In this document: positions 35,634 to 40,338 of the stretch, one piece after another
Layout: each line of letters starts with the position of its first letter
Numbering within the stretch: position 1 is the stretch's first letter
Assembly: GCF_014268455.2 (NCBI RefSeq)
Contig: NZ_CP077085.1
Coordinates: 5,990,206-6,054,205 of the forward strand
Origin: Pseudomonas shahriarae
GTDB taxonomy: Bacteria > Pseudomonadota > Gammaproteobacteria > Pseudomonadales > Pseudomonadaceae
Direction of reading: 5' to 3'
Length of the DNA: 64,000 nucleotides
Position numbers and translations under genes: made by a program
The notes under the pieces: generated by a model
The model's input: only the letters and a program-made list of their open reading frames with translations
Told to the model about the DNA's origin: nothing
Databases searched by the model: none

Positions 35634-36401
35634 TTAGAGAGTGGGAACGGGCTGGCTCCGTAACGCCACTAGCAAAGCCGCGGCACTGGCACCGCGGCAA
35701 TCCACAACTTTTTCCGCGCCCGCCGCCCGCGCCATTTCGGCGACGCGTGGGCTGGGCACGAACAACGGCAACTGTGCCACGCGTGGCCAATGGGCGCCGG
35801 CAAGGCTTTGCAAATGCAAAAAACCCTGCCCACTGCTGACCACCAGGCCGTTCAAGCGTTCCACAGCAATGCGCTGGGCGAGCACATCCGGGTCGTAGGC
35901 TGGCAGAAACCGACGATACAACTCCAGATAATCGACACTAGCACCTTGGCCGCGTAAACGCTCAGCCAGCAACTCTCGCCCACCCTGCCCGCGCAGGATC
36001 AATACCCGGGCATCGGCAATGGCGACAGCCTCGCGCAACCGGGGCACTTCAAGCAAGGCTTCGCTGTCATCCCCAACCTCGGGGTAGCTCACATCCAGGC
36101 CTTGGTCAGCCAGAACCTGGGCCGTTGCTGCGCCGACGCTGAACCACGGCAACGCCGGCACCGCTGGCGCGTACTGATCGAGCAATTGCAGCGCCACGCG
36201 CGCGGCCGGCTTGCTTACCACGATCACCGCGCAGTAGCGATCCAGGCCCTGGAAAACCGCCTGATGCTCAGGAGTGATGGGCAAGGGTTCGGTTTCCAGC
36301 AACGGCAAGCAGCTGCTGAAGATACCGGCTTCGGACAACGAGGCCGCCAGGGCTGCCGATTCCTCGGCAGGCCGCGTCAGCAGCACACGCCAACCGGTCA
36401 C
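35634..36401 (-). CDS. hemD: Uroporphyrinogen-III synthase
   Basis: A 255-residue enzyme that cyclises hydroxymethylbilane with inversion of ring D. The two-domain fold is suggested by [56 protein letters not shown] and [16 protein letters not shown]. The start is GTG at 36401, overlapping the hemC stop (GTGA), so translation is probably coupled to hemC. Confidence 0.93.
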
Positions 36402-37339
36402 TGCGGACCGGCCTCGCCATAGACTTTTTGCAGAATGGCGCCGGCGCCTTTGGCCAGCAATTCTTCGGCAACCTTCACACCCAGGCTGGCGGCCTCGGCT
36501 TGTGGCCCGCGAATTTCAGCGGTGAGCAGTAAACCACCGTCGGGATCGCCCACCAGGCCACGCAGCCAGAGGTTGTCACCCTCAAGGACCGCGTAACAGG
36601 CGATCGGTACCTGGCAGCCACCGTTGAGGTGCTTGTTCAGGGCGCGTTCGGCGGTGACGCGAATTTCGGTTTGCTGATGATCGAGAGGCTTGAGCAGCGC
36701 CTGGATTTCACGGTCTGCGGTACGGCATTCGATACCGACGGCCCCCTGCCCACCGGCCGGCAAGCTGTCTTCGACACTGATGGCCGAAGTGATGCGGTCT
36801 TCAAAGCCCAGGCGAATCAGGCCCGCCGCCGCCAGGATGATCGCGTCGTACTCGCCGGCATCCAGCTTGGCCAGGCGGGTATTGACGTTGCCCCGCAGGA
36901 AGCGGATCTGCAGGTCCGGGCGACGGGTCAGCAACTGGGCCTGGCGACGCAGGCTGGAAGTCCCGACGATGCTACCCAGGGGGAGCTCATCAAGGGAGGC
37001 GTAGGTGTTGGACACGAAGGCATCGCGCGGGTCTTCACGCTCGCAGATGCAATACAGGCCCAGGCCTTCGGGAAAGTCCATCGGTACGTCTTTCATTGAG
37101 TGCACGGCGATGTCGGCTTCATTCTCCAAGAGCGCGGTTTCCAGCTCCTTGACGAACAGCCCCTTGCCGCCGATTTTCGACAGTGGCGAGTCGAGCAGCT
37201 TGTCGCCGCGACTGACCATGGGCACCAGGGACACCGTAAGGCCCGGATGGGCTTGCTCAAGGCGGGCTTTGACGTATTCGGCCTGCCACAAGGCCAGGGC
37301 ACTTTTACGGGTGGCGATGCGGATTTCGCGAGAGGACAT
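36398..37339 (-). CDS. hemC: Porphobilinogen deaminase (hydroxymethylbilane synthase)
   Basis: A 313-residue enzyme that joins four porphobilinogens. [19 protein letters not shown] is the typical start, followed by [14 protein letters not shown] and [12 protein letters not shown] with [22 protein letters not shown]. The dipyrromethane cofactor cysteine is in [13 protein letters not shown]. It opens the hemCDXY operon, 138 bases from algR; that gap holds its promoter but no other gene. Confidence 0.97.
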
Positions 37340-37477: not shown

Positions 37478-38224
37478 CTAAAGCTGCTGCATCATTTTGC
37501 GCACGCCTGCGACATGGCGTCGGCTGACGATCAACGCATCGCCGTTGAGCCCTTTGAGGAACAACTGGAAATGCCCCAGGGGCGTGCGTTGCAGGCGCTC
37601 GATACGCTCGCGGGCCACCAGCGCATTGCGATGGATGCGCACAAAGCGCTCGCCAAATTCGTCTTCCAGGGCCTTGAGCGGCTCATCGAGCAGCACTTCG
37701 CCGACCTCGTGGCGCAAGGTCACGTACTTGTGGTCGGCGATAAAATAAATCACCTGGTCCACGGGAATCAGCTCGATGCCCTTGCGGGTCCGCGCGCTGA
37801 TATGGCTACGCGGGCCGTTGCCACTTTGCGCTGCGGGCTGGGTCAAGGCGCCGAGTTGGGCGCGATTGGGTCGCTCAGCCTTCTTCAAGGCCTTGAGTAC
37901 CGCATCGGCAGCCACTGGCTTGACCAGGAAGCTGACACCGCTGGCCTCCAGGGCCTGCGAGGGAAACTCCTCTTCACTGGCACAAAGCACCAATGCCGGC
38001 GGCGACTCGCGCTCGCTCAAGCGGGCAGCTACCTGCAGGCCATCAAGGCCCGGCATGGCGATATCGAGCAGCACCACATCCGGCTTCAGGCTTTCGATCA
38101 AGGCCAATGCCTCGTCGCCACTGCAAGCGCTGGGTTCAAGGACACTGTATCCCTCAAGCTCACTGACCATACGGCTCAGTCGCTCGCGGGCTTGGGGTTC
38201 GTCATCAACGATCAGGACATTCAT
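37478..38224 (-). CDS. algR: AlgR, LytTR-type response regulator
   Basis: A 248-residue regulator. The receiver domain has the acidic pair in DDEP, phosphoacceptor D54 in VVLLDIAMPG and K102 in FLVKPV. The C-terminal LytTR DNA-binding domain has YFIADHKYVTLRH and FVRIHRNALVARERIERLQ. It controls alginate, type IV pili and other traits in pseudomonads. ATG 38224 overlaps the stop of the upstream frame (ATGA), the remnant of its partner kinase gene algZ. All phosphorelay residues are kept although the adjacent kinase is broken. Confidence 0.95.
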   Translation of the reverse strand: MNVLIVDDEPQARERLSRMVSELEGYSVLEPSACSGDEALALIESLKPDVVLLDIAMPGLDGLQVAARLSERESPPALVLCASEEEFPSQALEASGVSFLVKPVAADAVLKALKKAERPNRAQLGALTQPAAQSGNGPRSHISARTRKGIELIPVDQVIYFIADHKYVTLRHEVGEVLLDEPLKALEDEFGERFVRIHRNALVARERIERLQRTPLGHFQLFLKGLNGDALIVSRRHVAGVRKMMQQL

Positions 38225-38606
38225 ATTGCGCTGGATTCCTGCGTGAGTCTCGCACAAGGATAGCGTAGACAGGTGCGGTGACTTCCGTCACGGCGATCCA
38301 CGCTAAGACTAGCGCGAGCGGCAAAAAGTGCCCCGAGAGCGACACCAATATTTACCCGGACCTGTTCAATACCGCCCATAACCCGATACCGCAGGGCATC
38401 GTCATAGGGTTTGCTGATACACAATATGAACACCCCCTCTACTTTAAGGTTAGCCTGGAGTTCGACCTCATTGCCTGGCATTGGTGCAGTGCACCCCTGT
38501 CAGTGCAACTGTAGACGCTCATGAAGACGACATTGCTCAATCGTCAAATATCGTTTCAATAAACATCCTTTGTTTACCTCAGGAACCGGCCGGGTTAAAC
38601 CCCCGC
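38221..38606 (-). pseudogene. algZ: Remnant of the sensor kinase gene algZ (fimS)
   Basis: One minus-strand frame from 38606 to 38221 reads like the C-terminal part of a LytS-type histidine kinase with pieces missing. 38606-38503 encodes TRPVPEV then KRYLTIEQCRLHERLQL, the conserved region after the phosphorylated histidine. An in-frame TGA at 38502-38500 interrupts it. 38499-38221 encodes TAPMPGNEVELQANL (N-box side), ISKPYDD, NIGVALGALF and SLSVDRRDGSHRTCLRYPC, typical of the ATPase end. About 30 residues expected between the two parts are absent, and a second in-frame stop lies at 38610-38608. The last codons overlap the algR start as ATGA. In P. aeruginosa the intact gene lies at exactly this place. 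Confidence 0.75.
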
Positions 38607-38774
38607 GTCACTCCCACCTCCAGTCTCATCCCGGACGCGGCAGACGGCAAGGCACTTTGCCATCCAGCAAACAAATAAAAATGCCGACGCGGCGTATCAA
38701 CGCCTCCATCAGCAACCCTGTTATTATCGGCGGCACACTTTCATGCCTCTTTTAAGCAGATCACGAGCGAATCC
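38607..38774. other. Gap holding the argH promoter and the decayed 5' part of algZ
   Basis: These 168 bases contain no convincing coding stretch in either strand. The rest of algZ, including histidine box and membrane segments, is gone or unrecognisable. The argH promoter must lie here. Confidence 0.4.
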
Positions 38775-40169
38775 ATGAGCACCGACAAGACCAACCAGTC
38801 CTGGGGCGGCCGCTTCAGTGAGCCCGTCGACGCCTTCGTCGCGCGCTTCACCGCCTCCGTCAATTTCGACCAGCGCCTCTATCGCCACGACATCATGGGC
38901 TCCATCGCCCACGCCACCATGCTGGCCAAGGTCGGCGTGCTGACCGATGCCGAGCGCGACAGCATCATTGACGGCCTGACCACGATCCGTGGCGAAATCG
39001 AGGCCGGTACCTTCGACTGGCGCGTGGACCTTGAAGACGTGCACATGAATATCGAGGCTCGCCTGACCGACCGCATCGGCGTGACCGGCAAAAAACTGCA
39101 CACCGGGCGTAGCCGCAACGACCAGGTAGCCACCGATATCCGCCTGTGGCTGCGCGATGAAATCGACTTGATCCTGGCCGAAATCACCCGCCTGCAAACA
39201 GGTCTGCTGGAGCAGGCAGAGCGTGAATCGGACACCATCATGCCCGGCTTCACCCACCTGCAAACCGCGCAGCCTGTGACCTTTGGCCACCATCTGCTGG
39301 CCTGGTTCGAAATGCTCAGCCGCGACTACGAGCGCCTGGTCGATTGCCGCAAACGCGCCAACCGCATGCCCCTGGGCAGCGCCGCGCTGGCCGGCACCAC
39401 CTACCCGATCGACCGCGAATACACCGCGCAACTGCTGGGTTTCGACGCCGTGGGCGGCAACTCCCTGGACGGCGTATCGGATCGCGACTTCGCCATCGAG
39501 TTCTGCGCCGCCGCCAGCATCGCGATGATGCACTTGTCGCGATTCTCCGAAGAGCTGGTGTTGTGGACCAGCGCGCAGTTCCAGTTCATCGACTTGCCGG
39601 ATCGTTTCTGCACCGGCAGTTCGATCATGCCGCAAAAGAAAAACCCCGACGTGCCAGAGCTGGTGCGGGGCAAGAGCGGCCGTGTATTCGGCGCGCTGAT
39701 GGGCCTGCTGACCCTGATGAAAGGCCAGCCTCTGGCCTACAACAAGGACAACCAGGAAGACAAGGAACCGCTGTTCGACGCCGCCGATACCCTGCGCGAC
39801 TCGCTGCGCGCGTTTGCCGACATGATCCCGGCGATCAAGCCCAAGCACGCCATCATGCGCGAGGCGGCCCTGCGCGGTTTCTCTACCGCCACAGACCTGG
39901 CGGACTACCTGGTGCGCCGTGGCCTGCCATTCCGTGACTGCCATGAAATCGTTGGCCATGCGGTGAAATACGGCGTGGATACTGGCAAGGATCTGGCGGA
40001 AATGAGCCTGGAAGAGCTGCGCCAGTTCAGCGACCAGATCGAGCAAGACGTGTTTGCGGTACTGACCCTGGAAGGCTCGGTCAATGCTCGCAACCATATC
40101 GGCGGCACGGCTCCGGCCCAGGTCAAGGCAGCCGTAGTGCGCGGCCAGGCCCTGCTCGCCAGCCGCTAA
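38775..40169 (+). CDS. argH: Argininosuccinate lyase
   Basis: A 464-residue enzyme that splits argininosuccinate into arginine and fumarate. The fumarase/aspartase superfamily signature is [19 protein letters not shown] with the catalytic serine, and [17 protein letters not shown] and [16 protein letters not shown] are also present. Length and ends are normal. It is transcribed away from algR. Confidence 0.98.
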
Positions 40170-40171
40170 AA

Positions 40172-40333
40172 GCATCGCAGGCAAGCCAGCTCCCACCTTT
40201 GACCGGGGCCTTCAATCTACCTCGGTCAACTGTGGGAGCCCGCTTGTGTGGGAGCTGGCTTGCCTGCGATAGCATCACCTTAGTGTCACTGACACACCGA
40301 GGTGCCTGCATCGCGGGCAAGCCCAGCTCCCAC
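40172..40333. repeat. Cluster of four REP elements
   Basis: Copies of the REP core occur at 40172-40196 (inverted), 40232-40246, 40248-40270 and 40310-40333 (inverted) between the convergent argH and GST genes. The second is a variant, GTGGGAGCCCGCTTG. Neighbouring copies can form hairpins. Confidence 0.88.
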
Positions 40334-40338
40334 ATTTA

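Follow-up and report, generated by a model that had tools for sequence, protein, structure and literature searches.

Conserved control-like DNA persists within a remnant of the algZ/fimS kinase gene upstream of algR in Pseudomonas shahriarae and its relatives

The DNA stretch analysed here (64,000 nucleotides from Pseudomonas shahriarae; hereafter, the window) contains algR at 37478..38224 on the minus strand, with hemC downstream of it (36398..37339, minus strand). The divergent neighbor argH (38775..40169, plus strand) bounds the locus. The product of algR is a LytTR response regulator of 248 aa, in which both the receiver (PF00072) and the LytTR domain (PF04397) were matched. The phosphoacceptor pocket residues D8, D54 and K102 are present, and residues 82-84 are A-S-E, not T-A-H. 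The gap between argH and algR is 550 bp in the window, whereas the 63 fetched pseudomonad loci in which algZ has its intact length have gaps of 1157-1449 bp. In this gap, a remnant of algZ/fimS lies on the minus strand at 38221..38560 (the upper end is approximate). Its frame reads ...LLKRYLTIEQCRLHERLQLH*QGCTAPMPGNEVELQANLKVEGVFILCISKPYDDALRYRVMGGIEQVRVNIGVALGALFAARASLSVDRRDGSHRTCLRYPCARLTQESSAI on the minus strand: it corresponds to the C-terminal part of the kinase, is interrupted by one in-frame TGA and has lost about 27 codons by an internal deletion. Its closing TGA is shared with the ATG of algR as ATGA. When intact AlgZ (the 417-residue open frame of locus L004) was used as the tblastn query against a few fetched loci, its residues 281-417, namely the last 137, aligned with the remnant at 51% identity (117 bits, E 2.6e-30). 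The N-terminal part of AlgZ, the membrane helices, the H box and the N box are absent from the 550-bp gap. The PF06580 profile (LytS-type His_kinase), which picks up AlgZ in relatives at 83-91 bits, had 0 matches across the one-contig genome of 6,054,205 bases, and the AlgZ query matched only the remnant in that genome. The initial annotation had described a broken algZ beside algR, with its N-terminal part missing, its end overlapping the algR start as ATGA, and an AlgR that keeps D54 and the LytTR domain and has lost its adjoining sensor. All of this agrees with the observations above, and the genome-wide searches gave no second algZ.

The window was compared with loci that were fetched as the best AlgR matches, as PF06580 matches and as matches to a pattern from block 2 (the conserved region described below); this sample is not random. 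Of the 44 kinase-less genomes that lack the block-2 stretch, 30 contributed additional loci and 3 others were already in the set. Loci with an argH-algR gap of more than 1000 bp were called intact. A long open frame is present at the overlap in 62 of these 63 loci; the exception, L019, was left out of the codon conservation and codon-position rate counts for intact algZ. Counts at AlgR sites include duplicates (63 intact and 161 kinase-less loci), except those for T82-A83-H84, D8, D54 and K102, which, like the motif counts, are non-redundant (51 and 144, respectively). L048, L053, L054 and the outgroups L056-L060, together with L019, were dropped from one set of counts. The rate counts by codon position and by site omit L203, L210, L228 and L053, and the count at the algR start (107 loci) also omits L175. 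The tree behind the change counts includes AlgR. An ungapped rate count for the short remnants was distorted by indels and was not used.

T82-A83-H84 is present in 51/51 non-redundant loci with an intact-length algZ, compared with 2/144 kinase-less loci. The two exceptions, L110 and L175, are little-decayed remnants with open frames of 134 and 214 codons and AlgZ identities of 69% and 82%, respectively. L175 (genome G204), in which the 82% identity concerns the C-terminal part of the kinase, is the least decayed of the kinase-less loci. From an alignment of CTAHDEF and by analogy to CheY, we take T82-A83 to be the beta4 switch residues of AlgR. How the beta4 Thr/Ser and the adjacent small residue generally function is described in PMC11045786. 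T82 alone was kept in 45/124 fluorescens-type and 34/35 short-type loci (duplicates included). Because T82 is retained in so many loci, the change at the switch is, as judged from these alignments, a loss of constraint over a region and not one substitution. The region is codons 80-107 of algR (37904..37987, minus strand). We called a position fixed when it was at least 98% identical in the 63 intact loci, and variable when it fell below 70% in the fluorescens-type or the short-type loci. Fixed positions had turned variable at 19/24 sites in residues 80-107, at 6/55 in residues 1-79 and at 0/87 in the LytTR domain; the difference between residues 80-107 and 1-79 gave a Fisher p of 5e-9, the certainty of which is overstated, as in the tests that follow, because sites and changes were assumed to be independent. 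In a structure model (mean pLDDT 82.7), residues 80-107 run from the end of beta4 through alpha4 and beta5 into the start of alpha5. The LytTR domain has undergone some change as well (0.78 amino-acid changes per site). The ratio of receiver to LytTR amino-acid changes was approximately 409:84 in the fluorescens-type loci versus 190:95 in the intact loci (odds ratio 2.4, p 4e-7); in the short group, this acceleration was less marked (odds ratio 1.6, p 0.016).

Three options had been offered for an AlgR that has lost its kinase: phosphorylation by another kinase, phosphorylation by a small phosphodonor, or action without phosphate. The drift at residues 82-84 and throughout 80-107, together with the conserved LytTR domain, favors the third option, and we infer that AlgR is largely uncoupled from phosphorylation. 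The first two options keep some weight through D8, D54 and K102. D54 and D8 are fixed in 144/144 kinase-less loci and K102 in 143/144, which would be unexpected if phosphorylation were irrelevant everywhere. A non-cognate kinase or small phosphodonor might thus still phosphorylate AlgR, and the receiver changes would then be a re-tuning to the new donor. The retention of T82 in nearly all short-type loci speaks for such a re-tuning, as does the concentration of the drift in residues 80-107; in response regulators, this region also makes partner contacts. However, the switch Thr has been lost in 79/124 fluorescens-type loci (duplicates included), residues 83-84 are replaced by many residue types and the genome has no match to a LytS-type kinase. 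Taken together, we consider continued phosphorylation unlikely and prefer an AlgR that works largely without phosphate. In P. aeruginosa, twitching requires phosphorylation of AlgR and alginate does not (PMC4064291), and ribonucleotide reductase genes are among the targets on which nonphosphorylated AlgR acts (PMC10134789). A conserved AlgR-binding site lies upstream of P. fluorescens prrF1 and prrF2, according to PMC13104616 (2026). A loss of the phosphate-dependent branch with retention of the other would fit these P. aeruginosa facts.

A changed control of pili, which had been proposed as one consequence of the kinase loss, is doubtful because the window genome has no match to PilY1 (PF05567). 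In this genome, the kinase and PilY1 are both gone. Among the genomes surveyed, PilY1 was found in 85/89 with PF06580 and in 87/209 without it; its presence in the latter indicates that kinase loss does not require loss of PilY1.

The remnant has not simply decayed, since block 2 and, to a lesser degree, block 1 have been conserved at the DNA level. Block 2 (38225..38332, minus strand) is the conserved region upstream of algR and was formerly the 3′ end of algZ. In 108 fluorescens-type loci, it underwent 1.03 Fitch changes per site versus 15.79 at algR third positions, approximately 15-fold less. When sorted by algZ codon position, the changes per site in block 2 were 1.08/0.86/1.14 in the 108 remnants and 0.69/0.86/3.31 in 50 intact genes. 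By these counts, codon periodicity is lost from block 2 in the remnants. When a 38-base stretch from block 2 was searched for with at most 3 mismatches, 249/298 genomes each had a single occurrence, and the reversed control gave 0. At the same threshold, the stretch is present in 84/89 genomes with PF06580 and in 165/209 without it; the other 44 of these 209 kinase-less genomes lack it. Within intact algZ (50 unique genes), synonymous codons are strongly fixed in the last 36 codons, except at the spacer of the AlgU-type motif described below and at a few other codons. Among the codons fixed inside the conserved stretches of intact algZ are CTA (98-100%) and AGA (100%). Both are rare codons in Pseudomonas.

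Block 2 contains an AlgU-type motif. Its -35 element, GCACTT (38326..38331, minus strand), underwent 0 changes at 6/6 sites, and its -10 element, TCTTA (38304..38308, minus strand; TCTNA in general form), follows after a 17-base spacer, with its last base at -80 from the algR ATG. Changes per site in the remnant loci were 0 in the -35 element, approximately 3.4 in the spacer and 0.2 in the -10 element. GCACTT-N17-TCTNA was found in 109/109 fluorescens-type remnants, in both L210 and L228, in 49/51 intact loci and in 0/33 short remnants, 32 of which have a loose form of it; in total, 111/144 non-redundant kinase-less loci carry the motif. Two algR starts were reportedly located inside algZ by Pritchett in 2015. 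A review of P. aeruginosa (PMC4064291) describes an AlgU promoter with the motif GCACTT-N17-TCTGA, which acts at position -73 relative to the algR ATG, as well as another start at least 160 bp upstream; PMC8787478 places an algR promoter within the 3′ region of algZ. The motif at 38304-38331 agrees with the P. aeruginosa promoter in sequence and distance and fits a start near -73; this match is made by published motif and distance, and the fetched loci include none known as P. aeruginosa. The window genome encodes one RpoE/AlgU-type and one RpoS sigma factor above the family cut-offs. A sigma-factor-like match with one in-frame TAG lies beyond the window (L284, G000:C1:5868513-5869319).

Other elements of block 2 lie between this motif and algR, all on the minus strand. 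The octamer TCTACGCT at 38262..38269, which we take to resemble an RpoS-type extended -10 consensus, is present in 107/109 fluorescens-type, 29/33 short and 48/51 intact loci and in one of L210 and L228. The dyad GTGAC-N4-GTCAC (38278..38291) occurs in 108/109 fluorescens-type, 32/51 intact and 3/33 short loci and in neither L210 nor L228. Written as GTGA-N6-TCAC, it resembles the Vfr core (consensus from PMC8787478), and its center bases are variable. Nearer to algR is CAGGAATCC (38233..38241), which contains a Shine-Dalgarno-like AGGA; CAGGAA is found upstream of algR in 195/195 non-redundant loci. In the short remnants, the frame is shifted at the algR overlap, in many of them by an extra base, and much of the DNA is still kept.

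If block 2 were conserved solely as the translation start region of algR, no promoter would be needed. The fixed CAGGAA points in this direction, as does a conservation that continues into algR: the first 20 bases (38205-38224) show 0 changes in 107 remnant loci, and third positions of codons 1-20 average 2.95 changes per site versus 15.79 overall (108 loci). Furthermore, a scan for sigma-70 promoters found none. However, conservation extends 107 bases upstream, with the -35 and -10 elements fixed and the spacer between them variable, and the folding of the leader is unremarkable (z -0.78). We therefore regard translation start alone as quite an improbable account of block 2. An RNA structure in the algR leader, considered separately, is unsupported, given this z value and the lack of an Rfam match at gathering score. 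We prefer the reading in which block 2 carries an AlgU-type promoter and the leader of algR, and it is predicted to be active as a promoter in the window species.

It is also conceivable that a former piece of the kinase, some 70-90 residues in length, is still made from the remnant as a small protein. In 124/124 fluorescens-type loci, the algZ frame indeed continues without a stop over 67 or more codons and into the ATGA overlap. However, codon periodicity is absent not only from block 2 but also from the middle stretch (6.57/8.08/6.72 changes per site by codon position), at most 35 codons are open in 32/35 short-type loci, and the 86-aa frame has no Pfam match. On the codon periodicity and the frame breaks, a small protein was rejected as very improbable, and we return to the reading of the remnant as retained control DNA.

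Block 1 (38505..38554, minus strand) is a weaker conserved element that once formed algZ codons of approximately -135 to -119. It contains CGTCTACAGTTG (38506-38517, minus strand) and a degenerate inverted repeat (38527-38554, minus strand). Block 1 underwent 3.7 changes per site, compared with 7.0 between the blocks and 8.6 above block 1; by these counts, its conservation exceeds that of the intervening stretch only about twofold. Its sequence CGTCTACAGT was found in 144/144 non-redundant kinase-less loci, where its distance to algR ranges from 150 to 368 bp, and in 36/51 intact loci. In intact algZ, the corresponding codons are fixed in patches (CTA 0.98, CAG 1.00, TTG 1.00, CGT 0.52 and CTT 0.54). 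Both stretches of algZ with conserved synonymous codons recur in the kinase-less loci. Block 1 might serve algR as a second promoter farther upstream. A perfect 8-bp inverted repeat, ACGATATT-N12-AATATCGT, opens block 1 in 19/51 intact and 44/109 fluorescens-type loci and is degenerate in the window. Near argH, there are two short conserved stretches with 0.4 and 0.75 changes per site. The former, ATAACAGGGT (38715-38724, minus strand), is perhaps a part of the argH promoter.

The loss of the kinase had been presented as a change in this strain, and in this respect the initial annotation was wrong. PF06580 was absent from 209 of 298 genomes of the genus and found in 89, and AlgR was found in 296 of them; the two misses are G223, which is 73% complete, and G232, in which the block-2 stretch is present. 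Among the fetched non-redundant loci, 144/195 are kinase-less. With these numbers, a sequencing or assembly error in one genome is refuted as the origin of the break, and its probability is practically nil. Of 80 named loci fetched with the AlgR query, 71 are kinase-less and 9 intact. According to the names in the records, the kinase-less loci include those of P. rhodesiae, P. poae, P. trivialis, P. lactis, P. jessenii, P. thivervalensis, P. protegens and P. chlororaphis, and the intact loci those of P. gingeri G9001, P. fuscovaginae, P. cichorii, P. tremae and P. graminis. The nearest named locus among those fetched is that of Pseudomonas sp. WS 5079 (AlgR 94%), although very near records may be missing. 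Four fluorescens-type remnants (L102, L133, L150 and L151) are labelled P. viridiflava, P. putida or P. syringae, and these labels may be wrong; algZ is intact in other P. viridiflava records (L165 and L168). In the group with the shortest remnants, argH-algR gaps are 295-324 bp. We read this group as probably the P. putida group because P. brassicae (L157) is a member and because algZ is given as 'nd' for P. putida KT2440 in PMC12112638. Judged from these loci, the loss covers the lineage of the window, most of the sampled P. fluorescens complex and the group with shorter remnants.

The kinase gene was probably lost several times over. In an eight-gene tree of 40 chosen genomes (23 kinase-less and 17 intact including the outgroup; the genes are neighbors of algR), the intact genomes G006, G169, G044 and G037 are nested in the fluorescens group, and the kinase-less G146 and G161 stand apart. 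If loss is irreversible, this tree requires five losses; two losses and one regain are also possible. Support was 48 for the exact place of the intact group and 53-75 around G146/G161, and the outgroup branch is very long. In a three-gene tree including AlgR, all remnants except L210 and L228 form one clade of 142 (support 0.90). In a two-gene tree without AlgR, intact loci are mixed among the remnants, with weak support. A history with a single loss is not established, since the two-gene and eight-gene trees intermix intact and kinase-less loci.

Our explanation, to which we give a probability of about 0.74, is that algZ eroded around control DNA that was embedded in it and kept, and that AlgR is likely an orphan regulator set by the amount made and not by a sensor. 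After algZ died, its coding sequence would have worn down around these elements, with block 2 supplying algR with its AlgU-type promoter and leader and block 1 possibly with a second promoter farther upstream. Purifying selection would preserve the DNA of the blocks for their role in driving algR and, probably, the hemC-hemD genes that follow. In P. aeruginosa, algZR is cotranscribed with hemCD (PMC5790918), which would be a further reason to keep the upstream elements. Kinase loss, retention of the blocks, the missing coding signature and the receiver drift can be read off the compared loci; what we infer is that the two blocks have promoter activity in this species and that its AlgR needs no phosphorylation to act. 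Because the DNA-binding domain is kept and constraint is lost at the phosphorylation-switch region of the receiver, AlgR is most likely set by its amount. Its level might be determined by envelope stress via AlgU, and perhaps by stationary phase via RpoS. Control of AlgR thus seems to have passed from the former sensor to the promoters of algR. A more far-reaching version is that every death of algZ led to a gene whittled down to its control elements, an AlgR without its switch, and an alpha4-beta5-alpha5 region rebuilt for a new, phosphate-free input or dimer state. We hold this version tentatively, as possible but short of an even chance. If it is true, a two-component regulator has been repeatedly converted in nature to a promoter-set one, and the intermediates L175 and L110 are still alive.

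The locus is similar to that of the AlgZ/FimS-AlgR system of P. aeruginosa in an AlgR with receiver and LytTR domains, in the adjoining argH and in an AlgU-type motif at equal distance. In contrast, in the window, the kinase gene is a remnant, T-A-H is replaced and the motif lies in non-coding DNA. SsoR of Shewanella likewise has no partner kinase, and a phosphorylation-independent activity is argued for it in PMC11045786. However, SsoR is of the OmpR/PhoB type and keeps its switch residues, whereas the window AlgR is of the LytTR type with a drifted switch region. Furthermore, unlike SsoR, AlgR has kinase-bearing, half-decayed and kinase-less relatives that coexist in one genus. For P. putida KT2440, algZ is entered as 'nd' beside algR (PP_0185) in the 2025 table of PMC12112638; the available portion of that source gives the absence only and describes no remnant, embedded elements or receiver change. 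In the accessible parts of the literature searched, we found no description of an algZ remnant or of retained embedded elements, and those of PMC3390384, PMC5738425 and PMC10146422 yielded nothing on AlgZ loss.

AlgR is usually described as one half of a two-component system, mostly from work on P. aeruginosa. Because the kinase is missing from most of the sampled genomes of the genus (the 209 of 298 above), extending the AlgZR model to P. fluorescens or its relatives is unsafe. Intact, half-decayed, remnant and minimal forms of the locus also make up a graded series in which a response regulator can be studied after kinase loss, and evolution has marked out the control DNA within the algZ coding sequence.

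Two minor observations concern argH. A megablast search against a plasmid collection gave 2 records, with matches of 44-50 bp in argH. Downstream of argH, at 40170-40335, there are repeated AGCTGGCTTGCCTGCGAT-like sequences, which resemble REP elements.
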